A DNA stretch of 64,000 bases from Leptolyngbya sp. SIOISBB (GTDB taxonomy: Bacteria; Cyanobacteriota; Cyanobacteriia; Phormidesmidales; Phormidesmidaceae), in contig JAAHII010000001.1 in the NCBI GenBank assembly GCA_010671905.1, positions 5,084,001 through 5,148,000 on the forward strand. Direction: 5' to 3'. The first letter of the stretch is position 1; each line of letters starts with the position of its first letter. The notes beneath the pieces were generated by a model. It saw nothing but the letters and a program-made list of their open reading frames with translations. It was not told the DNA's origin and ran no database searches. Positions 29,405-42,011 of the stretch are shown piece by piece. A program made the position numbers and the translations under genes.

Positions 29405-30337
29405 ATGGATCTGCTGAAAATTGGCGATCGCGTTTTGCAATCTGACGAATTAGTACCGCTGCTGAGCAAGACAAATTTGCTATCACGGGTGATTCAAGAG
29501 GTGATCATTGATGATGCGATCGCTGATGTGGAACTCACCGAAGAGGAAATTCAGGCTGCCGAAGCCGAATTTTGTCAGCGCAATAAAATTACCAATCCCC
29601 AAGAGGCGAATGCTTGGGCGCAGCAACAGTACGGGACCTCAGACCTGATTCGGACCACCGCGACTCGGGACAAGCAACTGGCCAAGTTCAAAGAACAGAC
29701 CTTTGCTAAAGAAGTTGAATCCTACTTTCTACAGCGCAAAAGTCGTTTGGATCGCGTGCTTTATTCGCTCATTCGCACCAGCCAACTTGGCTTAGCTCAA
29801 GAACTCTACTTCCGTGTTCACGATGATGGACAATCCTTTGCGGAGCTGGCGAAAGAATATTCTGAGGGGCAAGAAGCTAAAACCGGTGGCTTAATCGGGC
29901 CGGTGGAACTCAGCGTTCCTAATCCAGCGCTGGCGGGGTTGTTATCGGTGAGTAAACCGGGGCAAATCTGGCCCCCCAAACGGATTGGTGAGTGGTACGT
30001 TGTGGTGCGTCTAGAGAAATTTTTGCCCGCGCAATTAGATGCTGCGACTGAGCAACGGTTGCTGGATGAACTGTTTCAAACTTGGATGCGGGAGCAGCTC
30101 CAGCAATCGCCCGTGAGCCTCCCCAATGCTGACACCATTACCGTTGCAGCCGAGACTACTAACCCCGAATTGGCAGCCTCGATTCCTCTCAATCGAGACG
30201 CGATCGCAACAGCAGTGCCCGCTGTCGAGAATGTGGTTGCTCAACCCGACGTCACACCCCCGAATACCCCTGTCGGACAAGAAGCCGGCCCAGCCGACTC
30301 GCCTGCTCCGCAGGGCGGGGAGGATCCTTGGCAATAG
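29405..30337 (+). CDS. Parvulin-type peptidyl-prolyl isomerase (SurA-like)
   Basis: A 310-residue protein with a helical N-terminal chaperone part (about residues 5-105) and a rotamase (PpiC) domain near 110-215. The rotamase part has YFRVHDDGQSFAELAKEYSEG, TGGLIGPVELSVPNPAL and GEWYVVVRLEKF. The last 90 residues are Ala/Pro-rich and disordered. No signal peptide is visible, so it is cytosolic. Such free PpiC proteins in cyanobacteria often accompany secretion of exported peptides; no such genes lie beside it here. Confidence 0.85.
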   Translation: MDLLKIGDRVLQSDELVPLLSKTNLLSRVIQEVIIDDAIADVELTEEEIQAAEAEFCQRNKITNPQEANAWAQQQYGTSDLIRTTATRDKQLAKFKEQTFAKEVESYFLQRKSRLDRVLYSLIRTSQLGLAQELYFRVHDDGQSFAELAKEYSEGQEAKTGGLIGPVELSVPNPALAGLLSVSKPGQIWPPKRIGEWYVVVRLEKFLPAQLDAATEQRLLDELFQTWMREQLQQSPVSLPNADTITVAAETTNPELAASIPLNRDAIATAVPAVENVVAQPDVTPPNTPVGQEAGPADSPAPQGGEDPWQ

Positions 30338-30355
30338 TCAGTAGTGGCAGGGTGT

Positions 30356-31126
30356 TTACTGGGTTCTCGGAGCAACTTGGCCAATGTAGAACACATAGCC
30401 GTAATCGGCGGAATAGCGACGGAATAGCTCGATTTCTTGTTGATGAGACTCTAACAGCTGTAAAGCGTCGGGACTATGGGTGTATTTAGGCAATAAATCC
30501 TGGATCCGCTTTGCTAAAGGCGTGTAATAAAACGTCCACCAAGACTTTGCCGGTAAGAGTAAGTGCGCTACGGGGATATAGCCCATTTTTCTAAACAGCG
30601 TCAGATTTGCCTCTAAGCTTTGCATGAGCGGATACTCGGTTTGCCAAAACTGCTTCAGCGGCTCAGGCGGATCAGAGCGCAGCCAAGTGATTTCAGAGGC
30701 GACGAGATAGCCTTGCGGGGTGAGTAGTGATCGCCATTGCGTTAGTGCTTTCCCAAACCCCATGCTGTAAGCTGCACCCTCCGACCAGATCACGTCAAAG
30801 CTAGCGGTTGCGAACGGCATGGCGGCCATGTCAGCTTGGAGGGGGGTAACGCGATCGCCCAACCCTGTTTCCTGCAAAGACTGTTTGAGCTGCTCTAAAA
30901 AGGGTTGATGCAGATCCACCGCCGTTACATGCCCGGAGGCGGCGAGTCTGGCCAATTGGAGGGTTTGCATCCCAGGCCCACAGCCAACGTCTAAAATCCT
31001 GGGTTGCGGTGGCAAATCGGTCAACAGCGAAAAAGCCCGTGCCGTCGAAGCATCATCCCCTGGCCCTTCACGGGATAAGTCAGAATGCAGCTCCCAAAAG
31101 ACTTGCTGAGCGATTTCTTCATTCAT
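30356..31126 (-). CDS. Class I SAM-dependent methyltransferase
   Basis: A 256-residue methyltransferase with motif I ILDVGCGPGMQTLQLA, motif II VTAVDLHQPF, then QADMAAMPF and DVIWSEGAAYSMGF. The substrate is unknown. The start was placed at MNEEIAQQ (31126); the frame is open to 31162, but the upstream part is not family-like. It is transcribed toward the parvulin gene, ending 19 bp from its stop, and is not in an operon. Confidence 0.85.
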   Translation of the reverse strand: MNEEIAQQVFWELHSDLSREGPGDDASTARAFSLLTDLPPQPRILDVGCGPGMQTLQLARLAASGHVTAVDLHQPFLEQLKQSLQETGLGDRVTPLQADMAAMPFATASFDVIWSEGAAYSMGFGKALTQWRSLLTPQGYLVASEITWLRSDPPEPLKQFWQTEYPLMQSLEANLTLFRKMGYIPVAHLLLPAKSWWTFYYTPLAKRIQDLLPKYTHSPDALQLLESHQQEIELFRRYSADYGYVFYIGQVAPRTQ

Positions 31127-31285
31127 CGATGGTTTCTCATGACGATTAACAGAACTAGGCAAGCGGACTAGGAATAGCGAATAAAGTTTGACTGCCTCAC
31201 TTCACACTTTATCTACCTAATGTTCTTTGACAGGCTGCGCCAACCCATCCATCCTTCCTCTCACGATCAATCGCTTTAACCTAGA

Positions 31286-32119
31286 TCAATCCTCAGGAAT
31301 GGGGGCTGACATGAGTTTTCCTGTCATCACGGTGACGGCTTGACCGCTAATGAGCACGCGATCGCCCTCTCGCTGCACGTGCAAAATGCCACCTCGCTGC
31401 GAGACTTGCTTGGCGACAAAGTCGGATTTGCCTAATTTGTCTTCCCAAAAAGGGACTAGAGAACAATGAGCGGATCCCGTGACCGGGTCTTCATTAATGC
31501 CGACGGCGGGGGCAAAATATCGCGAGACAAAATCAACGTTGGGCGCTTCACTCAAGGCGGTGACAATCACGCCGTGGGCCGGTAGCAACCGCATCATGGC
31601 AAAGTCGGGCTGCAGCGATCGCACATAGTCTTCTGAGGGTAGTTCCACCAAGTAGTTGGTTTCGGCAGAGCCCCCATAGGTGACGGTTTCAGGTTGCAAA
31701 CCCCGCAGGCTCTTGAGCAGTTCTGGTGGCGCTGAGACCGGACTCAGCGGCTGACTGGGAAAGTTAAGGGTGATCCACTCGCTGTTTTGGGTCGCTGTGA
31801 GTAGACCACTCTTGGTATGAAATCGCGCCGTTTGGGCGGCTGCCAATATCCCCTCCCGCCACAATATATGGGCACTGGCGAGGGTGGCATGGCCACATAA
31901 CTCGACTTCGGTAGTGGGGGTAAACCAGCGCAATTGGTAGCCATCCTCGATCGGATGTAAAAAGGCAGTTTCGGAGAGGTTCATTTCTGCTGCCACGGCC
32001 CGCATCCAAGTTTCGCTGGTGGGAGTGGTTAACACACAAACGGCAGCCGGGTTGCCACTAAAAGGATGGTCGGTAAAGGCATCGACCTGAAAAATCGTCA
32101 CGGTATCAGGAAGGCTCAT
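31286..32119 (-). CDS. PhzF-family isomerase/epimerase-like protein
   Basis: A 277-residue protein with the PhzF fold. It has the N-terminal FQVDAFTDHPFSGNPAAVCVL, the conserved Glu in AEMNLSETAFL, and the second-half motif GINEDPVTGSAHCSL. PhzF proper acts in phenazine synthesis, but most bacterial members are of unknown function and no phenazine genes are here. It is monocistronic and divergent from the pentapeptide gene at 32340. Confidence 0.9.
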   Translation of the reverse strand: MSLPDTVTIFQVDAFTDHPFSGNPAAVCVLTTPTSETWMRAVAAEMNLSETAFLHPIEDGYQLRWFTPTTEVELCGHATLASAHILWREGILAAAQTARFHTKSGLLTATQNSEWITLNFPSQPLSPVSAPPELLKSLRGLQPETVTYGGSAETNYLVELPSEDYVRSLQPDFAMMRLLPAHGVIVTALSEAPNVDFVSRYFAPAVGINEDPVTGSAHCSLVPFWEDKLGKSDFVAKQVSQRGGILHVQREGDRVLISGQAVTVMTGKLMSAPIPED

Positions 32120-32339
32120 GAATTCAAACGGGCGATCGACAGTGTCATCATCATGGCCTAGAAGGCGGGATCCCGCGATCGCAAATTGGGCTGGTGAGCG
32201 GCGAGCTGTCTACCGCCCTGTCTTGATCTAGACGGGCAATATTTGCGAAGCTGGCAGAGCCAGATTATTCACAGCTAAGGGGTGTGCTGATTTAAAGTAA
32301 AGCAATAGTTACACATTCAGGTGAAGCAAGGTTATTGGT

Positions 32340-32831
32340 ATGCTCAACATCGCTCGGCCCCTCTGGAGATGGCTTTCTGTTGGTTTGCTGTTGTGCGTTT
32401 TAGGGCTTGGCCCGGCGGCGATCGCGGTAGATGACTTTACCTATGCCGATCTGCATCAGCGCTCCTTTGTGGGTGAAGATTTGACCGGTTCTTCCCTAGC
32501 GGCGGCCAATGCTCGTGAGGCTGACTTTACCGATGCCGACTTGAGTGAAACGATTTTGACGAAAGGGTCGTTTTATAAAGCTCACATGGCTGGGGTCAAT
32601 TTAACCCAATCCTTTGCGGATCGAGTCACCTTTGACCGGGCCGATTTGACCAATGCCATTATCGTCGATGCCATTATGACGAGCACAACCTTTACCGAAG
32701 CGATCATTGAGGGCGTTGATTTTTCGGACACGATTTTAGACCGTTATCAAGTGATGAAAATGTGTGAATATGCCGATGGCGTCAACCCGGTGACGGGGGT
32801 GGTTACCCGTGATAGTTTGGGGTGCCGCTAA
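32340..32831 (+). CDS. Exported pentapeptide-repeat protein, thylakoid-lumen type
   Basis: A 163-residue protein with a Sec-type signal peptide (WLSVGLLLCVLGLGPAAIA, cleavage near residue 29). About 15 pentapeptide repeats follow (A[D/N]LxX, for example FVGEDLTGSSL and READFTDADLSETIL), forming a right-handed beta helix. The C-terminal CEYADGVNPVTGVVTRDSLGC supplies two cysteines that could form a disulfide. It resembles the TL15/TL17 lumenal proteins of plants. Function unknown. Confidence 0.82.
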   Translation: MLNIARPLWRWLSVGLLLCVLGLGPAAIAVDDFTYADLHQRSFVGEDLTGSSLAAANAREADFTDADLSETILTKGSFYKAHMAGVNLTQSFADRVTFDRADLTNAIIVDAIMTSTTFTEAIIEGVDFSDTILDRYQVMKMCEYADGVNPVTGVVTRDSLGCR

Positions 32832-32998
32832 CGGTATGTGGAGTCTTTAATCGTCAGTGTTGGGTAGGGCTCGGATGCTCGGGCCAATGTGACCGCAGTC
32901 AGGCGATCGCATCGTTTTGTGAATAACCTTAATTTTCAACGTCAGTGAGGAACACTAAGCCCACTTGATTCTTCACAACCCAATCACAATTAGCCAGT

Positions 32999-33160
32999 AT
33001 GAAACTTATTTATCGCGGTATTTCTTACGAAGCTTCGTCAACCAGCGAAGCTAATGCTCCTGCTACTCGCCCGACGTCTCGTCAGCCTGCCTCACCGAAA
33101 GCTCGCCTACGCCGTTCGGAGCAAGAGCTGACTTATCGAGGCGTGCGATATAACGCTTAA
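32999..33160 (+). CDS. Small DUF4278 protein
   Basis: A 53-residue protein. The family signature appears at both ends: MKLIYRGISYEA at the start and ELTYRGVRYNA at the end, separated by a Pro/Arg-rich linker. DUF4278 proteins are small cyanobacterial proteins of unknown role. No ribosome site stronger than GCCAG precedes the ATG. Confidence 0.8.
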   Translation: MKLIYRGISYEASSTSEANAPATRPTSRQPASPKARLRRSEQELTYRGVRYNA

Positions 33161-33500
33161 CGCTCTTGGCGAGCGGGGCCGCCTTTTGACTTGTCGTTGA
33201 CGTGATGCTCACTCCACTGATGCTCAATTCCCCAATACGGAGATGCCCAATTCCCCAATACGGAAACGATGCGGATGGCATCTCGGCACACAGAAATTTT
33301 CGTGAACCCGTCATAATTTGACTAAAGGCAATGCAGCTAACCTGGTCTGATTGGCTGATGGACCGACTGAGCATGCGAGCCCCCCGCTCCATCAGTCGCA
33401 TATTCTTTAGCCGGAATTCGACTGATTGACTCTCAGTCGGAAACAGCCCAGTTCTAGGTTGCTGTTGTCGATAACCTGCGCGCTCCAGAGTCCCCTATTT
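33161..33500. other. Intergenic, 340 bp, with a short tandem repeat
   Basis: It holds the 23-bp tandem duplication described at 33221-33266. No other gene or RNA was recognised. Confidence 0.4.
33221..33266. repeat. 23-bp tandem duplication
   Basis: Two adjacent copies of a 23-bp unit share the 17-bp core CAATTCCCCAATACGGA at 33225-33241 and 33248-33264. The copies differ at two flanking positions. Function unknown. Confidence 0.85.
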
Positions 33501-33737
33501 ATGATTATTGACCCTCATTACCCTCATGTTGTGCTGGCTTGTCCCTACCGAGAATTCATGATTGAAGTTGAGCAAACGGTTTGGAATGATGTCACGACGT
33601 ATGCCGCATGGGTCAACTATGACACTGGATCAGCGGTTGCCGTCCCGAAAGCGTGGACTCGGGCAGAAGCGATTCGCCAGGCCAAGCGCTGGATCGATCT
33701 CAGGTTTTATGAAACTACTTACAGTTCTGCTCAATGA
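33501..33737 (+). CDS. Small hypothetical protein
   Basis: A 78-residue soluble protein of unknown family, with aromatic and acidic residues (PHYPHVVLACPYREF, AAWVNYDTGSAVAVPKAW) and a basic helix near the C-terminus (RAEAIRQAKRWIDLRF). The frame opens at 33426, but the ATG at 33501 (MIIDPHYPHVV) is the more protein-like start. Real-gene status is likely but unproven. Confidence 0.5.
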   Translation: MIIDPHYPHVVLACPYREFMIEVEQTVWNDVTTYAAWVNYDTGSAVAVPKAWTRAEAIRQAKRWIDLRFYETTYSSAQ

Positions 33738-33985
33738 GGGACCATTGTTGCCCGTCGGTTGCCAAAGACTGTATTGAGGATGGGCGATCGCTAGATGGGA
33801 GAATAGCCCGTCAGGTGACTAAAATCGTTCGCGAGTCAGGTCTGCACTCTGAATGCTGCCTTCTGTACTTCGCCGTTATGCCTTAATGTACGCACCCAAA
33901 AAGTCGCCGTTATCTTTTGGGAAGACAATGGCGGCTTTTTGGTCACTGCAGTTAACGACGCGTGATGACCACGGGGCGATGGTTC

Positions 33986-35173
33986 TTAGTGACTGTGATG
34001 ATGATGCTTATGTCCATGATCGTGTCCATGATGGGCGTGACTATGAGCGTGGGACTGGGCATGGGCGATCGCCAACTCAGGATTCACGGCGAGGGCATCT
34101 TCTTCCAGTAGGTCGCGAATTTGGCCATCGGCCCAATCAGCCACCATTTTCAAGAAAATGGGATGGTCATTGACGCACGGCATTTGAATAAAGCTGACAT
34201 CCTGATGCTTTTTCCGCACATTTTCGATGATGTGCTCGACGTCTAGCAGCGTTTCATGGTTTTCGGTGGCAAACCCGATGGGCATCATCACGATCGCTTT
34301 AGCGCCCAGCTCAATCAGATTTTGGGTGGCTAACTTCGCATTCGGCTGAGTCCACTTAATCATCGGCGTTTGATGATTGAGCCAGCCGACAGAAATGAGG
34401 GGATAGCGGTGGATTAGCCGTTCTCGCACCCGTTCATACAGCATCTGACTTTCGTCAATCCCAGAGGTGAAACCCTTGGCCTCAAAGGGACAGCCGTGGT
34501 TCATCAGCACAATGCCGACCTGAGAAGGCAAATAGGCCTTCGACAGTTCAGCACTAATTTTCTCCTCCACCATCTGCACCATGAGGTCTAGGTACGCCGG
34601 TTGATCAAAGAAAGAGGGGATATAGCGTACCCCCTTGACCCAATGCTCATGACCATCGCTGAGCTCAGCCAACGCATTGTTGACCTGCTCGACCGCGATA
34701 CCACTGGTAAAAATGGAATCGACTACCAGCAACGGATAGATAAGCAGTTTGCTAAAACCTTCGGCTTTAATCTGCTCCAACACTTGAGCCGGTAGGTGAG
34801 GCTTACAAAAATTGAATGCTTTGAAGACTTTGACGCGATCGCCCCAACGGGTTTGTAACTCCGCCTCGACACCCGCCCTTTGCTTCTCAAAAATAGCGTT
34901 GTGAGGCGAGATGAAGTGATCGTGCTGATGGCTCCACTCATGCAGGTCAAACATGGCCAGTAGCTTGGCCATCGGTGGGTAAACCCAGGTCGGAACTGGG
35001 GCAAACTTCGCCGTGAGCAGATTCAAGGCTTGCTCATTGTAGTTGGCAAAGTCATCGTAGCTTTCAACTTCTCCGTATCCCATCAGGAGAACGGCAACTC
35101 GGTCTTGGTCAGTCGACGAGTTCACCCCAGAAACTTTAAGACTTTCTTGAATGTTTTGAGTAGTAGTAACCAA
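33986..35173 (-). CDS. Ferrochelatase-like chelatase with a histidine-rich tail
   Basis: A 395-residue protein with two alpha/beta lobes of the class II chelatase (HemH/CbiK-like) fold. It shows VAVLLMGYGEVESYDDF, then LMNHGCPFEAKG (the metal-binding His position), and PIGFATENHETLLDVEHI (the catalytic Glu position of HemH). The last 26 residues hold 14 histidines (SHAHSHAHHGHDHGHKHHHH). This suggests storage or delivery of Ni, Co, Zn or Fe. It lacks the C-terminal CAB helix of the usual cyanobacterial HemH, so a different tetrapyrrole or metal is likely (inference). Monocistronic. Confidence 0.75.
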   Translation of the reverse strand: MVTTTQNIQESLKVSGVNSSTDQDRVAVLLMGYGEVESYDDFANYNEQALNLLTAKFAPVPTWVYPPMAKLLAMFDLHEWSHQHDHFISPHNAIFEKQRAGVEAELQTRWGDRVKVFKAFNFCKPHLPAQVLEQIKAEGFSKLLIYPLLVVDSIFTSGIAVEQVNNALAELSDGHEHWVKGVRYIPSFFDQPAYLDLMVQMVEEKISAELSKAYLPSQVGIVLMNHGCPFEAKGFTSGIDESQMLYERVRERLIHRYPLISVGWLNHQTPMIKWTQPNAKLATQNLIELGAKAIVMMPIGFATENHETLLDVEHIIENVRKKHQDVSFIQMPCVNDHPIFLKMVADWADGQIRDLLEEDALAVNPELAIAHAQSHAHSHAHHGHDHGHKHHHHSH

Positions 35174-35467
35174 AACGGTTCCTCGATGATGCTTGCGAAA
35201 ATTCTAACGTTACAAATGACGTGAATGCGCACTTTTTAGTTATACGTTAACATCCGTCTATGCAAGAATCAGTTGTTGGGCTTAGCGGCCACTATTTAAG
35301 GAACTATGCCCTTCTGCTCAGACGAAGATTAGCAGAGAAATTAACTACCCAATTGAATTATTGGCGACGACTAAAAAAACTTTGACTATAGGTTTTTAAA
35401 CCTCTTTTGTCGAAACTTAAGATTCTTTAATAAGACGTTTTGCTCTAGATTTCTGAACGACTGCGGG

Positions 35468-36226
35468 ATGCACGATTCAACTTGTTTCAATACGATTGCG
35501 CTGCGGATTCCAGCGGTGGTATCAGCGCAATCAGGGTTTCTGGCGCTCGCGCGGAGACGCCTTGTAACTGTTACGGATAAGCCTTGGCTAAATCCTCGTT
35601 CGACTGGGTTTGGCGTGGCGTTAGGGATTATTTTTGTCTCGGTACCAGTCTTTTTTGAAGCGCCCTTGGTCAGAGCCGCCCCTGGGCTAAGTGTGTTGCT
35701 CACTGGGCTATGGGTATGGGGCAGTGTGTGGCTGGGGCGGCAGCCCCAAACGGCTTTTGCGGGCGACTTACTGTTGGGGCTCAGCTGGAGCTGGCTCGCC
35801 GGAGCCATCTATTGGGGGTGGTTTCGGTGGGAGCCGTTATGGCATATCCCGATTGAATCGATTGGGTTGCCGGTGGCTCTATGGGGGCTGTATCGCGGTT
35901 GGGGTAAGGTGGGCCACTGGTTCTACCTAGGGTCGCTGTTAGGCACGGCGATTACCGATATTTATTTTTATCGGTTGCACTTAATGCCTTACTGGCGGCA
36001 ACTGATGGTGGCTCCGCCGGCTGAGGCGATGGGTATTGTGCAAACTGGGTTTCGTCAGATTCAGACGTCTGAGGGCGTTGGTTTGGCCGTCATGTGTGCC
36101 TTAGTGCTACTGACTTTGGCTCGGCAAGGTTGGCGATCGCCCCATCGTCATTTCTGGGTCTTTAGCGGAACGCTAATTGGTACCTTGCTGGTTGATGGGC
36201 TATTTGTCGTCCTCGCGAGTTTGTAA
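35468..36226 (+). CDS. DUF3120 integral membrane protein
   Basis: A 252-residue cyanobacterial membrane protein. After a polar lead come about six hydrophobic segments, with family features such as GLSWSWLAGAIYWGWFRWEPLWHI and HLMPYWRQLMVAP. Function unknown. The ATG at 35468 starts a 45-residue hydrophilic stretch; a later start near residue 38-48 is possible. Confidence 0.8.
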   Translation: MHDSTCFNTIALRIPAVVSAQSGFLALARRRLVTVTDKPWLNPRSTGFGVALGIIFVSVPVFFEAPLVRAAPGLSVLLTGLWVWGSVWLGRQPQTAFAGDLLLGLSWSWLAGAIYWGWFRWEPLWHIPIESIGLPVALWGLYRGWGKVGHWFYLGSLLGTAITDIYFYRLHLMPYWRQLMVAPPAEAMGIVQTGFRQIQTSEGVGLAVMCALVLLTLARQGWRSPHRHFWVFSGTLIGTLLVDGLFVVLASL

Positions 36227-36292
36227 GTCTATTCAATCCAAGCGTGGCTGGTTGAGCGGCGCTCACGTTATGGCGTAGCTGATACAGCGAGT

Positions 36293-36316
36293 TCACCCCA
36301 ATGATGATTGGGGTGA
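36293..36316. repeat. Short stem-loop after the DUF3120 gene
   Basis: An 8-bp stem (TCACCCCA at 36293-36300 with TGGGGTGA at 36309-36316) around an 8-base loop. No T run follows, so a terminator role is weak. It lies 67 bp after the stop codon. Confidence 0.4.
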
Positions 36317-36462
36317 CAGAGTAATCGGTGTTACGGTGAGGGCGTTGGCTCAAGTCACAAATAGCCATTGTTTATATCCGCCATAGAATATTCGTCCACC
36401 AATGCTCGTGCATTTGTTAACAAATAGTTACAATGGATCTAGTTCAGCTCCTATAAGGCGAG

Positions 36463-37236
36463 ATGACATCGATTGTGTTTGGTAATTTGCCCGTTCCTGG
36501 TCAAAGCGGCGATCGCGTCGTTAGTAAAGCTGTTACGGCGGCAATTTCTGCATTGTTCAAGCAGTCCGAAAAGCTAGAGGCGATTGTCCGGGCAGAGCCG
36601 GTCGCTAAGCTTTTGCAAGGGAGTGTCGATGGCTTTGACTTCATTGGCCAAGGGTTGCTGATGTATAGCGGGTTGCGGGTAGAATCCATGGAATTCTACG
36701 TGCAGTCGGTGGCGATCGACTTTGGCGCTATTTTCAAGGGGCAGGTCAAGCTTAAGCAGTCAACTCAGGCCAACATGCGAATCGTGTTGACTGAGGAGGA
36801 TATGAATGCCTCTTTCAATACCCCCTTTCTCATCGAAAAAATGCAGCAGCTCACCTTTCAAGGAGATGCTTTGAACTTTGATGATGTGCAACTCAAAGTT
36901 GAGGAAAACGGTGAGTTGAGTCTGCAGGGGCAAGTGCGGGTTGGCCAGGACACTGAGCCTCGGGCCGTGAGTTTCACGACCCGCATCGAGGTGCAGGAGC
37001 GTCGCAGCATCCAGTTTGTTGACGTAGATTATGGTGACAACCCCGCCAATCTAGAGTTGAGTCAGGCGTTGGTCAACCATCTCAATAATTTATTGGATTT
37101 CGATAAGTTTGCGCTAGATGGTATGCAGCTGCGAGTTGACCAATTACGACTCCGGAATCAGAAGCTCACCCTATACGGAATCGCCAATATCACGGACTTC
37201 CCTCGCCGCTCGGCCGCTAAAGCTGTGGCCGCTTAA
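36463..37236 (+). CDS. DUF2993/LmeA-family protein
   Basis: A 257-residue protein of the LmeA/DUF2993 family, a BPI-like fold thought to handle lipids or glycolipids. It has SGLRVESMEFYVQSVAIDFGAIFKGQVKL and a C-terminal LALDGMQLRVDQLRLRNQKL-type beta pattern. No signal peptide is visible, so it may be a soluble or peripheral membrane protein in the cytosol. It is followed at about 190 bp by the DICT-domain gene. Confidence 0.75.
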   Translation: MTSIVFGNLPVPGQSGDRVVSKAVTAAISALFKQSEKLEAIVRAEPVAKLLQGSVDGFDFIGQGLLMYSGLRVESMEFYVQSVAIDFGAIFKGQVKLKQSTQANMRIVLTEEDMNASFNTPFLIEKMQQLTFQGDALNFDDVQLKVEENGELSLQGQVRVGQDTEPRAVSFTTRIEVQERRSIQFVDVDYGDNPANLELSQALVNHLNNLLDFDKFALDGMQLRVDQLRLRNQKLTLYGIANITDFPRRSAAKAVAA

Positions 37237-37428
37237 AGACCTACCTGCTGAGGGACTACCCGGTCGGGGCAATCGCTGGGTAGGATGAAAAATGTTAATG
37301 AGTCGCTCCGGCGATGGTCATCCCACTGGCAAACCCTTTCCAGTAAAATAACTGAGGGCTTTGATCTAGTGAGTCGGTGAGATCAGTAAGGTTCCGGTAA
37401 CGCAATTGGGGCTGTAGCAACAACTAGG

Positions 37429-38820
37429 ATGGACTCAAATTCGACACTTAATCAACTGAAGGCAGCGCTACCGTCCGGGCAGTTACCCTCTAGCTATCGG
37501 GTTTACTTTAAAAACACCCTAATTGCACTGTGTCATGCCTTAGAAGACCATATTCTGAAAAGCACGGCTCAGCAGCCGGGGCAAGAGCCTTTAGTGCTCG
37601 TCACTTTCCAAGAGGGGAAGTGGTATATGCAGGAAGCCGATCGTTATTTGGAAATTGCCCAAAACTCCGCCGAAGTGGCAATTGTTGCTTGTGCTGATAG
37701 TGGCTTTGAGACTCACCCAACGGGGCAACTGGAAAATGTCTCTCTCATCGACCTAGCGCGTGATGACAGCCTAGCCAATGAATGGAATCTGATCATTGTG
37801 GCCCCTGGCTACACGGCGATGGTGCTGTGTCACGAACTGTCTCCCGAAGAGTACCAAGCGGATACTCAGCCGCGTAACGATGTTGAGCGTAAGTTTTATG
37901 GACTGTGGACGTTTGATCGTGCGGCAGTGGAGGCGGCAGCTTCGATTTTGATCGAACGGATGCGCCCCTATGACGAGGCTTTGGCGGATCGCCTCAGCAC
38001 TCTGCAGCAGCAGATGATTACCAACCCTGAGGCGGTGCCCATTGACTTGACCAGTGTGGTGTCGCGTATCGTGAATTACTTGCAAGACAGCCAAGAACAT
38101 CTCATCACCGCGAATCGTCAAGCGCAGGAACTTTGGGAGCTTGAAGGTCACGCCCTCAGGGTGAATCGCAACATGACGGCTAATAAGTTACAGGCCTTTC
38201 TGCGGATGGCTCAGCGAGTCGATGAACGGGATCAAGAGAATCCCCTCGCTTCGCTACAGGTTGCGGCCCTGGCCGAAACCCTGGGCCAAATCTTGGATCT
38301 GCCGACGATTCGGCTGCGGCGGTTACGATTAGCCGGACTCCTGTTTCGCATTGGGTTGGCGGAAGCGCCAATCGAAGTCTTTCAGCAACCCGCGAGTCAA
38401 CTGCGAGACTCGGAGTTGGTGACGTGGAATAATCGTGCCTATTTGGGGGGGCAGCTGCTGGCGGCGATGTCAGAGTTGGAGCCCGTGCGCGTGATTGTCA
38501 GTCATCAACTCGAAAACTGGGATGGCAGTGGTCGGCCAGATGGCTTACGGAGCGAAGACATTCCGTTAGAGTCACGTATTTTGCGGTTGGCAGCGTACTT
38601 TCAAGAACTTACCCAACCACGCGGCGATCGCCCTGCCCTTAGCTTGACTGCAGCGCTCGAAAAATGTGTCCAGCATGGCGGTAGTCGATTTGATCCCGCT
38701 TTGATCGAGCATTTGACAACTATTGTTCGATTGACTGAAATCGGTATGATGCAGTTACCGGATCGCCCTAGCCAGCTCCCCAAAGTTTGGCTAGAGGAAT
38801 CGCTGTCCCCTGTCGCCTAA
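37429..38820 (+). CDS. DICT sensor with a degenerate HD-GYP-like domain
   Basis: A 463-residue soluble signalling protein. Residues about 25-185 form a DICT sensory domain (RVYFKNTLIALCHALEDHIL, KFYGLWTFDR). A helical linker leads to a domain with the HD-GYP layout: LAGLLFRIGLAEAP where HDIGK is expected, then VSHQLENWDGSGRPDGL (HHE..DGSGYP-like). The first His-Asp metal pair is missing, so cyclic-di-GMP hydrolysis is unlikely and a binding or scaffold role is plausible. Adjacent genes do not suggest a pathway. Confidence 0.78.
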   Translation: MDSNSTLNQLKAALPSGQLPSSYRVYFKNTLIALCHALEDHILKSTAQQPGQEPLVLVTFQEGKWYMQEADRYLEIAQNSAEVAIVACADSGFETHPTGQLENVSLIDLARDDSLANEWNLIIVAPGYTAMVLCHELSPEEYQADTQPRNDVERKFYGLWTFDRAAVEAAASILIERMRPYDEALADRLSTLQQQMITNPEAVPIDLTSVVSRIVNYLQDSQEHLITANRQAQELWELEGHALRVNRNMTANKLQAFLRMAQRVDERDQENPLASLQVAALAETLGQILDLPTIRLRRLRLAGLLFRIGLAEAPIEVFQQPASQLRDSELVTWNNRAYLGGQLLAAMSELEPVRVIVSHQLENWDGSGRPDGLRSEDIPLESRILRLAAYFQELTQPRGDRPALSLTAALEKCVQHGGSRFDPALIEHLTTIVRLTEIGMMQLPDRPSQLPKVWLEESLSPVA

Positions 38821-38838
38821 TCTGAAAGCCGCCCAGCT

Positions 38839-39459
38839 ATGACTTCGTCTCCCACTTCATTACCTGTATCGCTTGATATTACTGCTATCCGAACTGGCAA
38901 CCAGAAGAACTTAAGCGAGGCGATGCTGGCTGGGCAAGATTTGTCTGGGGCGGATTTAGAGGCGGTTAATTTGGCTAAAGCTAATTTGGCGGGTGCTAAT
39001 CTGGCCGGTGCCAATCTCCGCCAAAGTAATCTGCGCTGCAATCTGCGGGGGGCTAACTTGGGAGGGGCTGATTTGATGGGGGCTGACCTCCGCAACGCTG
39101 AGTTGCAAGGCAGTACCTTCATCGAAGCACGGTTTCAAAACACGAGTTTTGCAGGCGCTTTTATGGCCGGAGTGAACCTTAGTCAAGCTGACTTAACTGG
39201 CTCTGATTTTCGCGGTGCTGATCTGCGGGGGGCCGATTTGCGTGAGGCCAAACTTGAGCAAGTCGATTTTAGCAACGCCAATTTGGCCGGAGCGAATCTG
39301 TCTGACGCCAATCTGGAAGAAGCGATTTTGAATGGGGCAATTGTCCGGGGCACCAATTTCACCGGGGCTAATTTGCTGTGTGTGGAAGGTGAAGGTGTGG
39401 CTTGGGAAGGTGCCTGTCTCGACGGTGCAGCGAGTGCAGGTAGTATCCTAGACACCTAA
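38839..39459 (+). CDS. Cytosolic pentapeptide-repeat protein
   Basis: A 206-residue protein made almost entirely of pentapeptide repeats of the A(N/D)LxX type (for example SGADLEAVNLAKANLAGAN and RGADLREAKLEQ), about 30 repeats without a signal peptide. Such beta-helix proteins occasionally mimic DNA and inhibit gyrase, but no specific role is known. It starts 18 bp after the DICT gene and 26 bp before the DUF4079 gene, which suggests an operon. Confidence 0.85.
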   Translation: MTSSPTSLPVSLDITAIRTGNQKNLSEAMLAGQDLSGADLEAVNLAKANLAGANLAGANLRQSNLRCNLRGANLGGADLMGADLRNAELQGSTFIEARFQNTSFAGAFMAGVNLSQADLTGSDFRGADLRGADLREAKLEQVDFSNANLAGANLSDANLEEAILNGAIVRGTNFTGANLLCVEGEGVAWEGACLDGAASAGSILDT

Positions 39460-39485
39460 GCTGCATGTAAACCGGAGATAGCGGT

Positions 39486-39953
39486 TTGAATCTCCCTTCT
39501 TTTATCTGGTTATGGCGCATCGCTGCCTGGTCGATGGGCCTCACAGTCTTCCTATTTGTGTGCCTGGCCGCCCTCGGTGGCTGGATGCGCTATCTCCGAC
39601 TGCAAGGGGAGACTGTGCCTGCTATCGATACCCAAACATCGCTGTTTCCCAGTTTGCGTCGCGTGCATTTCAGCCTTGGCATGATGCTCGTATTTACGAT
39701 ACTCCTCCTCCTCTCGATTGGGATTGTGGGTACCTTGGGACATTTTGGGAGCTTAGGGCATTCTCCCCATTTGCCAGTTGGCCTGACGGTAGTGACCTTG
39801 ACCCTGGCTTCGGCCTGGTCCGCCACCCAGATTAATCATCCCCAGAAGCCGTGGGCGCGATCTCTCCATCTCACCTTGAACAGTTTGCTAATGGTTGCTC
39901 TGGCCCTCGTCTCCTGGTCTGGTTGGCTCGTCGTGCAAAAATATTTGCCTTAA
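39486..39953 (+). CDS. DUF4079-family membrane protein
   Basis: A 155-residue cyanobacterial membrane protein with four hydrophobic segments, of the DUF4079 (cytochrome b561-like) type. Histidines in RRVHFSLGMM, GHFGSLGHSPHLPVG and LHLTLNSLLM could bind haem (inference). The start is TTG at 39486. It is the last gene of the short DICT-pentapeptide run. Confidence 0.72.
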   Translation: MNLPSFIWLWRIAAWSMGLTVFLFVCLAALGGWMRYLRLQGETVPAIDTQTSLFPSLRRVHFSLGMMLVFTILLLLSIGIVGTLGHFGSLGHSPHLPVGLTVVTLTLASAWSATQINHPQKPWARSLHLTLNSLLMVALALVSWSGWLVVQKYLP

Positions 39954-39977
39954 ATAACCTGAGTGGTAATTTCTGGT

Positions 39978-40019
39978 TTTTTGCAACAAGGCATCTTGAA
40001 CCTATCCTTGTTGCAAAAA
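39978..40019. repeat. Perfect 14-bp inverted repeat
   Basis: The arms 39978-39991 and 40006-40019 (TTTTTGCAACAAGG and its complement) are exact, with a 14-base loop. The T run is on the 5' side and the A run on the 3' side for both strands, the reverse of an intrinsic terminator. It lies 25 bp after the DUF4079 stop. Confidence 0.75.
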
Positions 40020-40262: not shown

Positions 40263-42011
40263 GTGGGGAAGCCTCCAGTGCCCAAACAAACGATTCAAAG
40301 TTATCAAATCAGAGTGTATATGAACGCCCGAGAGCTCGGTTTAACGCAGAGCGATGCAGCTTCGATTGCCGAATTTTCGGACCGCACCGGCCAGCGCATT
40401 GAGGCCGGAACGCATCAACCCAATCGCGGTCGGGTGCGGGACTGGCGCACCAGCGCTGACCCGCTCGCGGGGGTATGGGAAGAAGAACTTGAACCGATGC
40501 TGAGACGGGAGCCACGGCTAAAGCCGACAACACTGTTCGAGTATTTGCAAGAGCGTTATCCAGGACAATATCCCCAAGTGCTGCGGACCGTGCAACGGCG
40601 CGTTCGAACCTGGAAAGCATTGCATGGCGAAGCCCCGGAAGTCATGTTCGAGCTGCGCCACGAGCCTGGTGTGATGGGCATCTCCGACTTTACTGAGCTA
40701 AAAGGGGTGGAGATCACTATCAGCGGAAAGCCATTTGAGCATCTGCTCTATCACTACCGTTTGGCCTACAGTGGCTGGCGTTATGCCCAAGTGATTCAAG
40801 GCGGCGAGAGCTTCATCGCCTTGTCGGAAGGGCTACAGAATGCCCTATTTGCCAGTGGCGGCGCGCCCCAAGAGCATCGCACGGATAGCCTCAGTGCGGC
40901 CTATCGCAATACCGGTGGCAAAGGGCACAAACCGTTGACCCGCCTCTATGACGACCTGTGTCACCACTATCGTCTGAGACCGACGCGCAACAACAAAGGG
41001 ATTGCTCATGAGAATGGTGCGATTGAATCGCCTCACGGTCATCTCAAGAACCGCATTACCCAGGCGCTCTACCTTCGCGGCAGCCGTGACTTTGCTAGCG
41101 TGAGCGACTATCAAGCCTTCATTAACAGCATTGTCGCCAAGCTCAACCAGCAGCATCAGGCCAAGTTTGCCGAAGAGCAGAAGCATCTGCAGCCCTTACC
41201 GCCCAAACGGGTGGCCGACTACGAAGTCCTCACTGCCAGGGTCAGCAGTCGCAGCACCATTGATGTGCGTTGCATTCTCTACACCGTGCCGTCCCGATTG
41301 ATTGGTCGCCAGCTTGAACTCCATCTCTACCATGACCGCATCTGTGGCTATCTCGAACGCCAGGTCGTCGTGGAACTGCCGCGCCTGCGTGTCACCGCCA
41401 AAGACAAACGCCGCGCTCGGTGCATCAACTATCGTCACGTCATTGAAGGGCTCAGGCGTAAACCCAGAGCCTTTATCTACTGCACCTGGCAGCAAGACTT
41501 ATTACCCAATGCCCCTTACCGGCAGTTGTGGCAACAGCTTCAAGCTGACTTTGATATCGATAGCGCCGCCGTCCTGATGGTGGAAGCGCTCTACATTGCC
41601 GCTACTCAGGACAAAGAATCTGCTGTCGCCGAGTATCTAGTGGCTCAGTTGGCTGCTGGCACCCTAACTTTATCTACCTTGCAACGACACTTTCAGCTCT
41701 TGAAGGAAACGACTCTACCGACTGTGCAGGTGCAACAACATGACTTGAAAGACTATGACCAACTCCTCCAGCCAGACGCCGCAATTGAGTCCCTACCAGA
41801 GTCTCAGCCTCCACCTCAAACGCTTGCGCCTCTCCCACATGCTCCAGCATTGGGAGACCCTGGAACATCAGGCCATGCAAGAACACTGGTCTTACGCTCA
41901 ATTCTTGCTGGCACTTTGCGAATTGGAGGTGGACCGACGCTGGAGTGTGCGCCTCAAACGTGCCCTGCAAGAGGCTCAACTGCCCGCCGCCAAAACGGTT
42001 TCCAACTTTGA
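40263..42011 (+). CDS. istA: IS21 transposase IstA
   Basis: A 582-residue transposase with an N-terminal HTH (VYMNARELGLTQSDAASIAEF) and a DDE integrase core. The core has GISDFTELKG (first Asp), EHRTDSLSAAYRN (second Asp) and KGIAHENGAIESPHGHLKNR (Glu). The frame runs 257 bp into istB, giving a Pro-rich C-terminal tail (LPESQPPPQTLAPLPHAPA). Other IS21 elements overlap by only a few bases, so the tail is notable. Start ATG at 40263. Confidence 0.9.
   Translation: MGKPPVPKQTIQSYQIRVYMNARELGLTQSDAASIAEFSDRTGQRIEAGTHQPNRGRVRDWRTSADPLAGVWEEELEPMLRREPRLKPTTLFEYLQERYPGQYPQVLRTVQRRVRTWKALHGEAPEVMFELRHEPGVMGISDFTELKGVEITISGKPFEHLLYHYRLAYSGWRYAQVIQGGESFIALSEGLQNALFASGGAPQEHRTDSLSAAYRNTGGKGHKPLTRLYDDLCHHYRLRPTRNNKGIAHENGAIESPHGHLKNRITQALYLRGSRDFASVSDYQAFINSIVAKLNQQHQAKFAEEQKHLQPLPPKRVADYEVLTARVSSRSTIDVRCILYTVPSRLIGRQLELHLYHDRICGYLERQVVVELPRLRVTAKDKRRARCINYRHVIEGLRRKPRAFIYCTWQQDLLPNAPYRQLWQQLQADFDIDSAAVLMVEALYIAATQDKESAVAEYLVAQLAAGTLTLSTLQRHFQLLKETTLPTVQVQQHDLKDYDQLLQPDAAIESLPESQPPPQTLAPLPHAPALGDPGTSGHARTLVLRSILAGTLRIGGGPTLECAPQTCPARGSTARRQNGFQL

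Follow-up and report, generated by a model that had tools for sequence, protein, structure and literature searches.

The 64,000-nucleotide stretch of the Leptolyngbya sp. SIOISBB genome analysed here (the window) carries a gene for a ferrochelatase-like protein with a histidine-rich tail, and the question it raises is whether this is the housekeeping ferrochelatase of the organism or a chelatase with another task. The preliminary description of the locus took the latter view and proposed a chelatase of unknown substrate, perhaps for Ni, Co or Zn, which is possible. Our preferred reading, held tentatively and with a probability of a little under one half, is that the protein is a non-housekeeping class II chelatase of the HemH fold, from an ancient cyanobacterial family, and that it shares a pathway with a minimal alpha/beta-hydrolase whose gene lies elsewhere in the genome; in short, we take it to be a non-heme chelatase linked to stress.

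The protein scored 134.2 bits against the Pfam ferrochelatase profile PF00762, above the gathering score of 27, and 83 bits against the TIGR00109 hemH equivalog model, below the cut-off of 124.6; three relatives reached 64.5, 58.2 and 83 bits against the latter. Its final 45 residues hold 14 histidines, as the preliminary description had counted, and the C-terminal CAB helix (ExxNxR) reported missing is indeed absent here and present in two other genes of the same 8.34 Mb genome. These two further PF00762 genes score 408 and 405 bits, and each encodes a CAB-type C-terminus. The window gene is therefore not the housekeeping ferrochelatase, and the objection raised with the preliminary description, that it might be the only ferrochelatase of the organism, falls away. 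The TTG start is plausible, given that the same site reads TTG-Val-Thr in a close relative (L005), GTG in L032 and ATG in L052.

The neighbouring DUF3120, LmeA, HD-domain and pentapeptide genes recur at a minority of chelatase loci and were uninformative, and no RNA families were found within positions 30000-40000 of the window. The DUF3120 gene (35468-36226, + strand), which encodes a membrane protein matching PF11318 at 260 bits, is divergent from the chelatase gene and lies upstream of it in 16 of 81 loci. Further along, a long ORF at 40263-42011 (+ strand) resembles, by eye, an IS21-type transposase.

Table 1. Features of the chelatase locus, in window coordinates.
Feature	Position	Strand	Remarks or basis
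His-tailed HemH-fold chelatase gene	33986..35173	-	395 aa, TTG start, stop included
C-terminal His-rich tail, codons of residues 369-395	33989..34069	-	Translation, His count
Glu304-Asn305-His306-Glu307 codons (HemH: Asp/Glu-His-Ile/Leu-Glu); Glu307 = human Glu343	34253..34264	-	Alignments
Asn225-His226-Gly227 codons; His226 = human His263, B. subtilis His183	34493..34501	-	Alignments
Decayed promoter element (TTCTTGCATAGACGGATGTTAACGTATAAC)	35239..35268	-	Left C-tract missing although the right half survives; scores 8.0

The AlphaFold model of the protein is HemH-type (mean pLDDT 77.9), and the best solved structures in a Foldseek search were the human and B. subtilis ferrochelatases (E about 1e-15, best 1.3e-15), with TM scores of 0.60-0.70 by query length and up to 0.81 by target length. 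The active site was compared in an alignment of 53 sequences, composed of main-family proteins of less than 83% mutual identity (broken ones excluded), the window protein and four deep, paralogue or Nostoc sequences. The catalytic residues His226 and Glu307, aligned to human His263 and Glu343, are invariant in all 53 rows, as are Cys123, Asn266, His267, Trp274, Asn305, Asp311 and Cys333. The preliminary description had reported this pair as kept; that much stands, but it was incomplete, as the intervening residues differ from those of the human enzyme. Human Asp340-His341-Ile342-Glu343 becomes Glu304-Asn305-His306-Glu307, with His341 replaced by Asn (53/53) and Ile342 by His (51/53). Where cyanobacterial HemH has Arg-Tyr-Trp, the family has Asn-Phe-Cys (51 rows with Asn121, all 53 with Phe122 and Cys123), and the human Ser303-Lys304 pair is replaced by the invariant Asn266-His267. 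Taking the human numbering as we assume it to be, Arg164, Tyr165, Ser303, Lys304 and His341 thus have Asn, Phe, Asn, His and Asn as their counterparts, and the residues we take to be Trp310 and Phe337 are kept. The HemH substrate-loop motifs GGGSP and LGGP are not retained.

Compared with HemH/CpfC (PF00762, TIGR00109; human FECH, B. subtilis HemH), the protein therefore shares the fold of the whole core, the catalytic His and Glu and the Trp310 and Phe337 counterparts, whereas it differs in its sub-equivalog score, its place on the opposite side of a well-supported branch (see below), the change of His341 to Asn, the altered loops, the lack of CAB and the histidine tail. A catalytic pair that is retained while second-shell and substrate-loop residues were altered and then fixed would fit a chelatase that handles a different ring or a different metal. 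The competing view that fares best is a ferrochelatase stress isoform, which, under down-regulation of the CAB enzyme, would insert Fe into protoporphyrin IX or coproporphyrin III, its tail merely buffering metal. The HemH fold and the His/Glu pair agree with such an isoform, but the loss of both loop motifs, the five changed counterparts and the identity of only ~24-28% to HemH, as against 68-92% inside the main family, make it unlikely.

Rather less likely, in our judgement, is a cobalt or nickel chelatase that would act like CbiX-L on sirohydrochlorin or a corrin precursor. The CbiX-L/SirB/CbiK/CfbA enzymes belong to the same class II chelatase superfamily, the protein matches the CbiX profile PF01903 at 34 bits (cut-off 22) and CfbA weakly, and a His-rich C-terminus is termed typically diagnostic of CbiX-L (PMC5816740, in the portion available). 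Those enzymes differ, however, in having a two-His active site (PMC7689651, likewise in part), and the pair of histidines in one lobe that marks sirohydrochlorin chelatases was not found: the second catalytic place is held by Glu307 in all 53 rows, the extra His306 standing one residue earlier. Fold and sequence are of the HemH type, and SirB is a distant fold match only, with a query-normalised TM of just 0.42-0.44, far behind ferrochelatase. The CbiX-L MxCxxC [4Fe-4S] motif is not seen, by eye, in the translation. The gene is, moreover, absent from cyanobacterial groups that we take to be pseudo-B12 makers. Two cbiX copies are also already reported, in accessible portions of the literature, for Trichodesmium and other cyanobacteria.

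A survey of 289 genomes of the class, each at least 95% complete, gave a strong chelatase match in 169; the other 120, the rows scored absent having been chosen by hand, had HemH-type matches only, at ~25% identity. Four of the 169 (G117, G325, G329 and G394) hold only a paralogue, leaving 165 with the main chelatase. No sampled member of families f2, f5 and f16 or of genus g52 has the main chelatase, and elsewhere its absence is patchy. Full-length relatives across family and class share 68-92% identity, the list of relatives including one contig search of which the best 80 of 164 matches were taken. The search beyond Cyanobacteriota, which covered plasmid records only, gave HemH-like matches at 22-26% and one Nostoc paralogue.

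A maximum-likelihood tree of 30 rows separates the main family together with the paralogue (18 rows) from cyanobacterial HemH with a support of 98/99, and grouping with standard HemH, the outcome that would have spoken against the preliminary description, did not occur. Support for the main family with paralogues excluded is only 47/0. The tree includes four long-branch rows, among which L289 has a very long branch and is probably a wrong ORF; L286 and L295 had no ORF. Judged by its sequences, the chelatase family is old, cyanobacterial and widespread.

The tail is a regular feature of the main family: all 96 complete proteins of at least 360 aa, drawn from 100 deduced main-family proteins among which certain genomes entered twice, carry 7-24 histidines (median 15) in the last 45 residues, and as a sequence feature it is therefore not due to chance. 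Outside that group the core can occur without it, as in the Gloeobacter-like member, G304 and the paralogues, while G295, which shares a deep clade with G304 and the Gloeobacter-like member, has it. The tail-less members suggest that the tail is not essential for the job of the core, which counts against our preferred reading.

The partner in that reading is a divergent gene for a protein of ~187 aa, which occurs in 31 of 82 chelatase loci of at least 9 kb, within 0.75 kb of the chelatase gene in 29 of them. Two members searched against NCBIfam gave no match, and all 31 searched against Pfam gave nothing better than a thioesterase domain at E 0.0027. The AlphaFold model (pLDDT 96) retrieved minimal lipases and thioesterases in Foldseek at TM below 0.6. 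Since Ser74-Ala-Gly, Asp101, His118-Asp119 and His144 are invariant in the 31 sequences, the protein is most likely a working minimal alpha/beta-hydrolase. It resembles B. subtilis LipA in size, core fold (Foldseek E 4.5e-4, TM 0.47-0.48), Ser-Ala-Gly elbow and invariant Asp and His, and differs from minimal alpha/beta-hydrolases such as LipA in conserved Asp-x-Trp and Ser-His-Asp motifs of its own.

Across 126 genomes, 73 have both genes, three the chelatase only, none the hydrolase only and 50 neither, giving a Fisher value of 6e-32 in which kinship is ignored. Presence and absence were tabulated by hand; best E values never fell between 1e-25 and 1e-80, and weaker matches were scored absent. 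In some of the genomes scored as present the gene is fragmented. Two of the three exceptions (G325 and G329) have the divergent paralogue only, and the third, G332, a 380-contig assembly, is real and counts against the preferred reading. In the window genome the hydrolase gene lies 0.72 Mb from the chelatase gene, so the match of the profiles is not explained by linkage. A second check covered 35 chosen genomes, in which the hydrolase is absent from ten chelatase-less genomes (G154, G158, G198, G084, G176, G352, G364, G368, G393 and G401) of five families that otherwise bear the chelatase, absent from the four paralogue-only genomes and present in 8 of 9 chelatase-bearing ones, the exception again being G332. 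As a control, the profile of a CsoR-family gene was mismatched with that of the chelatase in 6 of 32 genomes (G117 left aside). Another genome, G206, holds broken remnants of both genes (L133 and L281; C1:2299291-2299518 and C1:436082-436375) 1.86 Mb apart, a case of parallel decay of unlinked genes. The matching profiles, the co-absence in the second set, the joint decay in G206 and the worse match of the CsoR control together argue that chelatase and hydrolase most likely act in one pathway, although co-occurrence among larger genomes can partly be shared history.

Upstream of the chelatase gene there is a palindromic element, ATCCCC(C)-n-GGGGGAT-GTTA-nnCTA. Of 100 upstream regions, 88 scored above 12 bits (12.3-41.4), whereas no score above 6.6 came from 100 shuffled regions; the motif was fitted on the regions it scores, among which the window (as L004 and WIN) and some genomes figure twice. 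The exact pattern ATCCCCN{2,5}GGGGATGTTA occurs in 17 of the 126 genomes, once in each, and precedes the chelatase in 16 cases and a ferritin in one, and its reversed control had zero matches in the same genomes. A looser pattern matched at 26 places (21 before the chelatase, one before ferritin and four elsewhere), and its reversed control also matches. The Gloeobacter-like genome has the element between hydrolase and chelatase (21.1 bits) and two relatives have it beside the hydrolase (G282, 21.1 bits; G288, 19.2 bits), which suggests that the element is old. It is missing at the paralogues. It is also missing at the G304 and G295 chelatases, and unlinked hydrolases have no strong copy, which again counts against the preferred reading.

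By its layout, the element may be an extended -10 promoter (TGnTAnnnT) overlapped by the palindrome of a repressor or activator. In form it resembles what we take to be CsoR/RcnR or MerR protein sites, and several candidate regulators were tried and rejected. A CsoR-family regulator does not fit, as G026 has the exact site and no PF02583 match, and G052, G103, G115 and G027 have the repressor and no chelatase; around 27 CsoR-family genes no strong site was found, the best scoring 12.7 bits beside one in G035. A MerR gene adjoining the hydrolase in G304 has a mismatched profile, as G031, G276, G160 and G078 have the chelatase and no MerR match. Zur and Fur boxes were set aside because shuffled sequence scored about equally well. 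The accessible parts of the literature on InrS and nickel sensors yielded no operator sequence for comparison, and a literature search with the operator string had no match. G/C-tract palindromes of a similar form were seen beside CsoR-family genes (L179:1275, L179:1972 and L180:2027).

The ferritin gene just mentioned (PF00210; G046, L139/L187/L212) has a full chelatase-type element 148 nt upstream. A site shared with ferritin would suit a ferrochelatase stress isoform, but it is found at 1 of 14 orthologues; 13 lack it, and an iron regulon is not claimed.

Clues to the metal come from a sister paralogue of 44-50% identity, found in 5 of 20 genomes searched. A ZIP-like gene lies directly downstream of it in G117, G329 and G325 (recognised in G325 through its likeness to that of G329) and ~3 kb downstream in G192, and a ZnuA/ABC/ABC-3 importer set lies directly downstream in G394. 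The ZIP calls are marginal, with PF02535 scores of 35.3, 32.5 and 30.6 where the cut-off is 35.1 bits. The ZnuA match is 243 bits, the protein staying below every NCBIfam cut-off shown and matching manganese models too. The binding protein and permease in G394 match best the zinc AztC and AztB models, under their cut-offs, and the ATPase a manganese model. For ZIP and ZnuABC-type importers, Zn and Mn overlap. An MgtA-type Mg ATPase adjoins the paralogue in G117. The importer neighbours occur at paralogue loci and not at the main chelatase gene, a point against the preferred reading. Taken with the His-rich tail, these neighbours make zinc the best guess at the metal of the family, ahead of Co and Ni.

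Several paralogue loci (among L279, L280, L285, L132 and L131) have DUF308, PepSY-TM and pyridine-nucleotide oxidoreductase genes nearby, and in Nostoc sp. UHCC 0926 a copy is carried by a 1.04 Mb plasmid. The sampled genomes of family f36, genus g80, lack the main chelatase; three of them (G325, G329 and G394) hold the importer-linked paralogue, which is otherwise found in family f22, and this distribution suggests that the paralogue has spread horizontally.

Expression data are available through Nostoc 7120. The gene order acetolactate synthase - MFS - hydrolase - chelatase is found at eight loci, and a ninth has the acetolactate synthase without the MFS gene. As all4613 is an acetolactate synthase (PMC7354497, in the part available), this conserved order means that alr4616, called ferrochelatase, should be the His-tailed chelatase gene, an identity given by synteny only; alr3751 is likewise entered as hemH in the accessible part of PMC8147232. 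According to the portions available of the two studies, alr4616 was 8.6-fold up when cells had been at low CO2 for 1 h, alongside OCP (23.9) and HLIP genes (9.8 and 8.6) (PMC7699953), and was induced by H2O2 in a pkn22 mutant with log2 values of 2.3 (array) and 3.65 (qRT-PCR) (PMC4518582). Induction together with HLIPs and OCP would equally suit a ferrochelatase stress isoform. In the wild type, H2O2 barely induced the gene (log2 0.28 and 0.43; PMC4518582, in part), which counts against a stress role.

The sequences themselves give the fold, the His/Glu pair, its altered neighbours, the tail, the separation from HemH, the co-occurrence and the promoter element, and our preferred reading of a non-heme chelatase working with the hydrolase would run as follows. 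The His-rich tail would collect a divalent metal, for which Zn(II) is the likeliest candidate. His226 would accept protons from the pyrroles, and Glu307, together with the acidic helix, could move the metal into, or perhaps out of, a tetrapyrrole other than the HemH substrate. The hydrolase may cut an ester or thioester bond, either on that tetrapyrrole or on a carrier, and the pair may serve under light or oxidative stress. A bolder version, which we regard as improbable, is an undescribed cyanobacterial branch that makes or dismantles a non-chlorophyll metallo-chlorin: a product of chlorophyll breakdown would lose its phytyl or 13(2)-methyl ester to the hydrolase and receive Zn, Ni or some other metal from the chelatase, so that under stress a phototoxic pigment is quenched. 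If true, it would offer a genetic handle on natural nickel and zinc chlorins such as tunichlorin. These nickel chlorins come from a tunicate with a cyanobacterial symbiont, and the nickel has been attributed to the tunicate (PMC8074062, in the part available). Least probable of all is a metal store or chaperone, with a chelatase fold that does no chelatase chemistry and a tail that does the work: the tail varies in length and sequence and yet stays His-rich in every complete main-family protein, but conservation is much higher in the core than in the tail, the core retains the catalytic pair, and the deep members L130 and L282 are cores without a tail.

The family itself is not new. A 2021 paper (PMC8529089, J Biol Chem) described a subset of cyanobacterial ferrochelatases without CAB and with His-rich C-termini as 'not previously identified or studied', and this subset is in all likelihood the same set; the portion of that paper available to us does not give the active-site change, the partner, the promoter element or the phyletic profile. 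In the accessible part of PMC5295598, most cyanobacteria are said to have a single ferrochelatase gene. A literature search limited to titles and the starts of abstracts, with few subscription papers covered, found no treatment of the function of the His-tailed chelatase, and 'ferrochelatase-like' with cyanobacteria had no match in it. As far as the literature searched extends, the co-occurrence with the hydrolase, the near-private promoter palindrome, the changed active site and the importer-linked sister paralogue are new.

The chelatase is found in over half of the sampled cyanobacterial genomes, where it is annotated as a plain ferrochelatase. The lineages without it include small-genome groups and, presumably, common unicellular laboratory strains, which would explain how it came to be overlooked. 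Its being kept or lost with a specific hydrolase points to a tetrapyrrole pathway, and to our knowledge no known pathway map contains one in which these two proteins take part. As a matter of caution, transcripts of the alr4616 type should not be read as heme synthesis.
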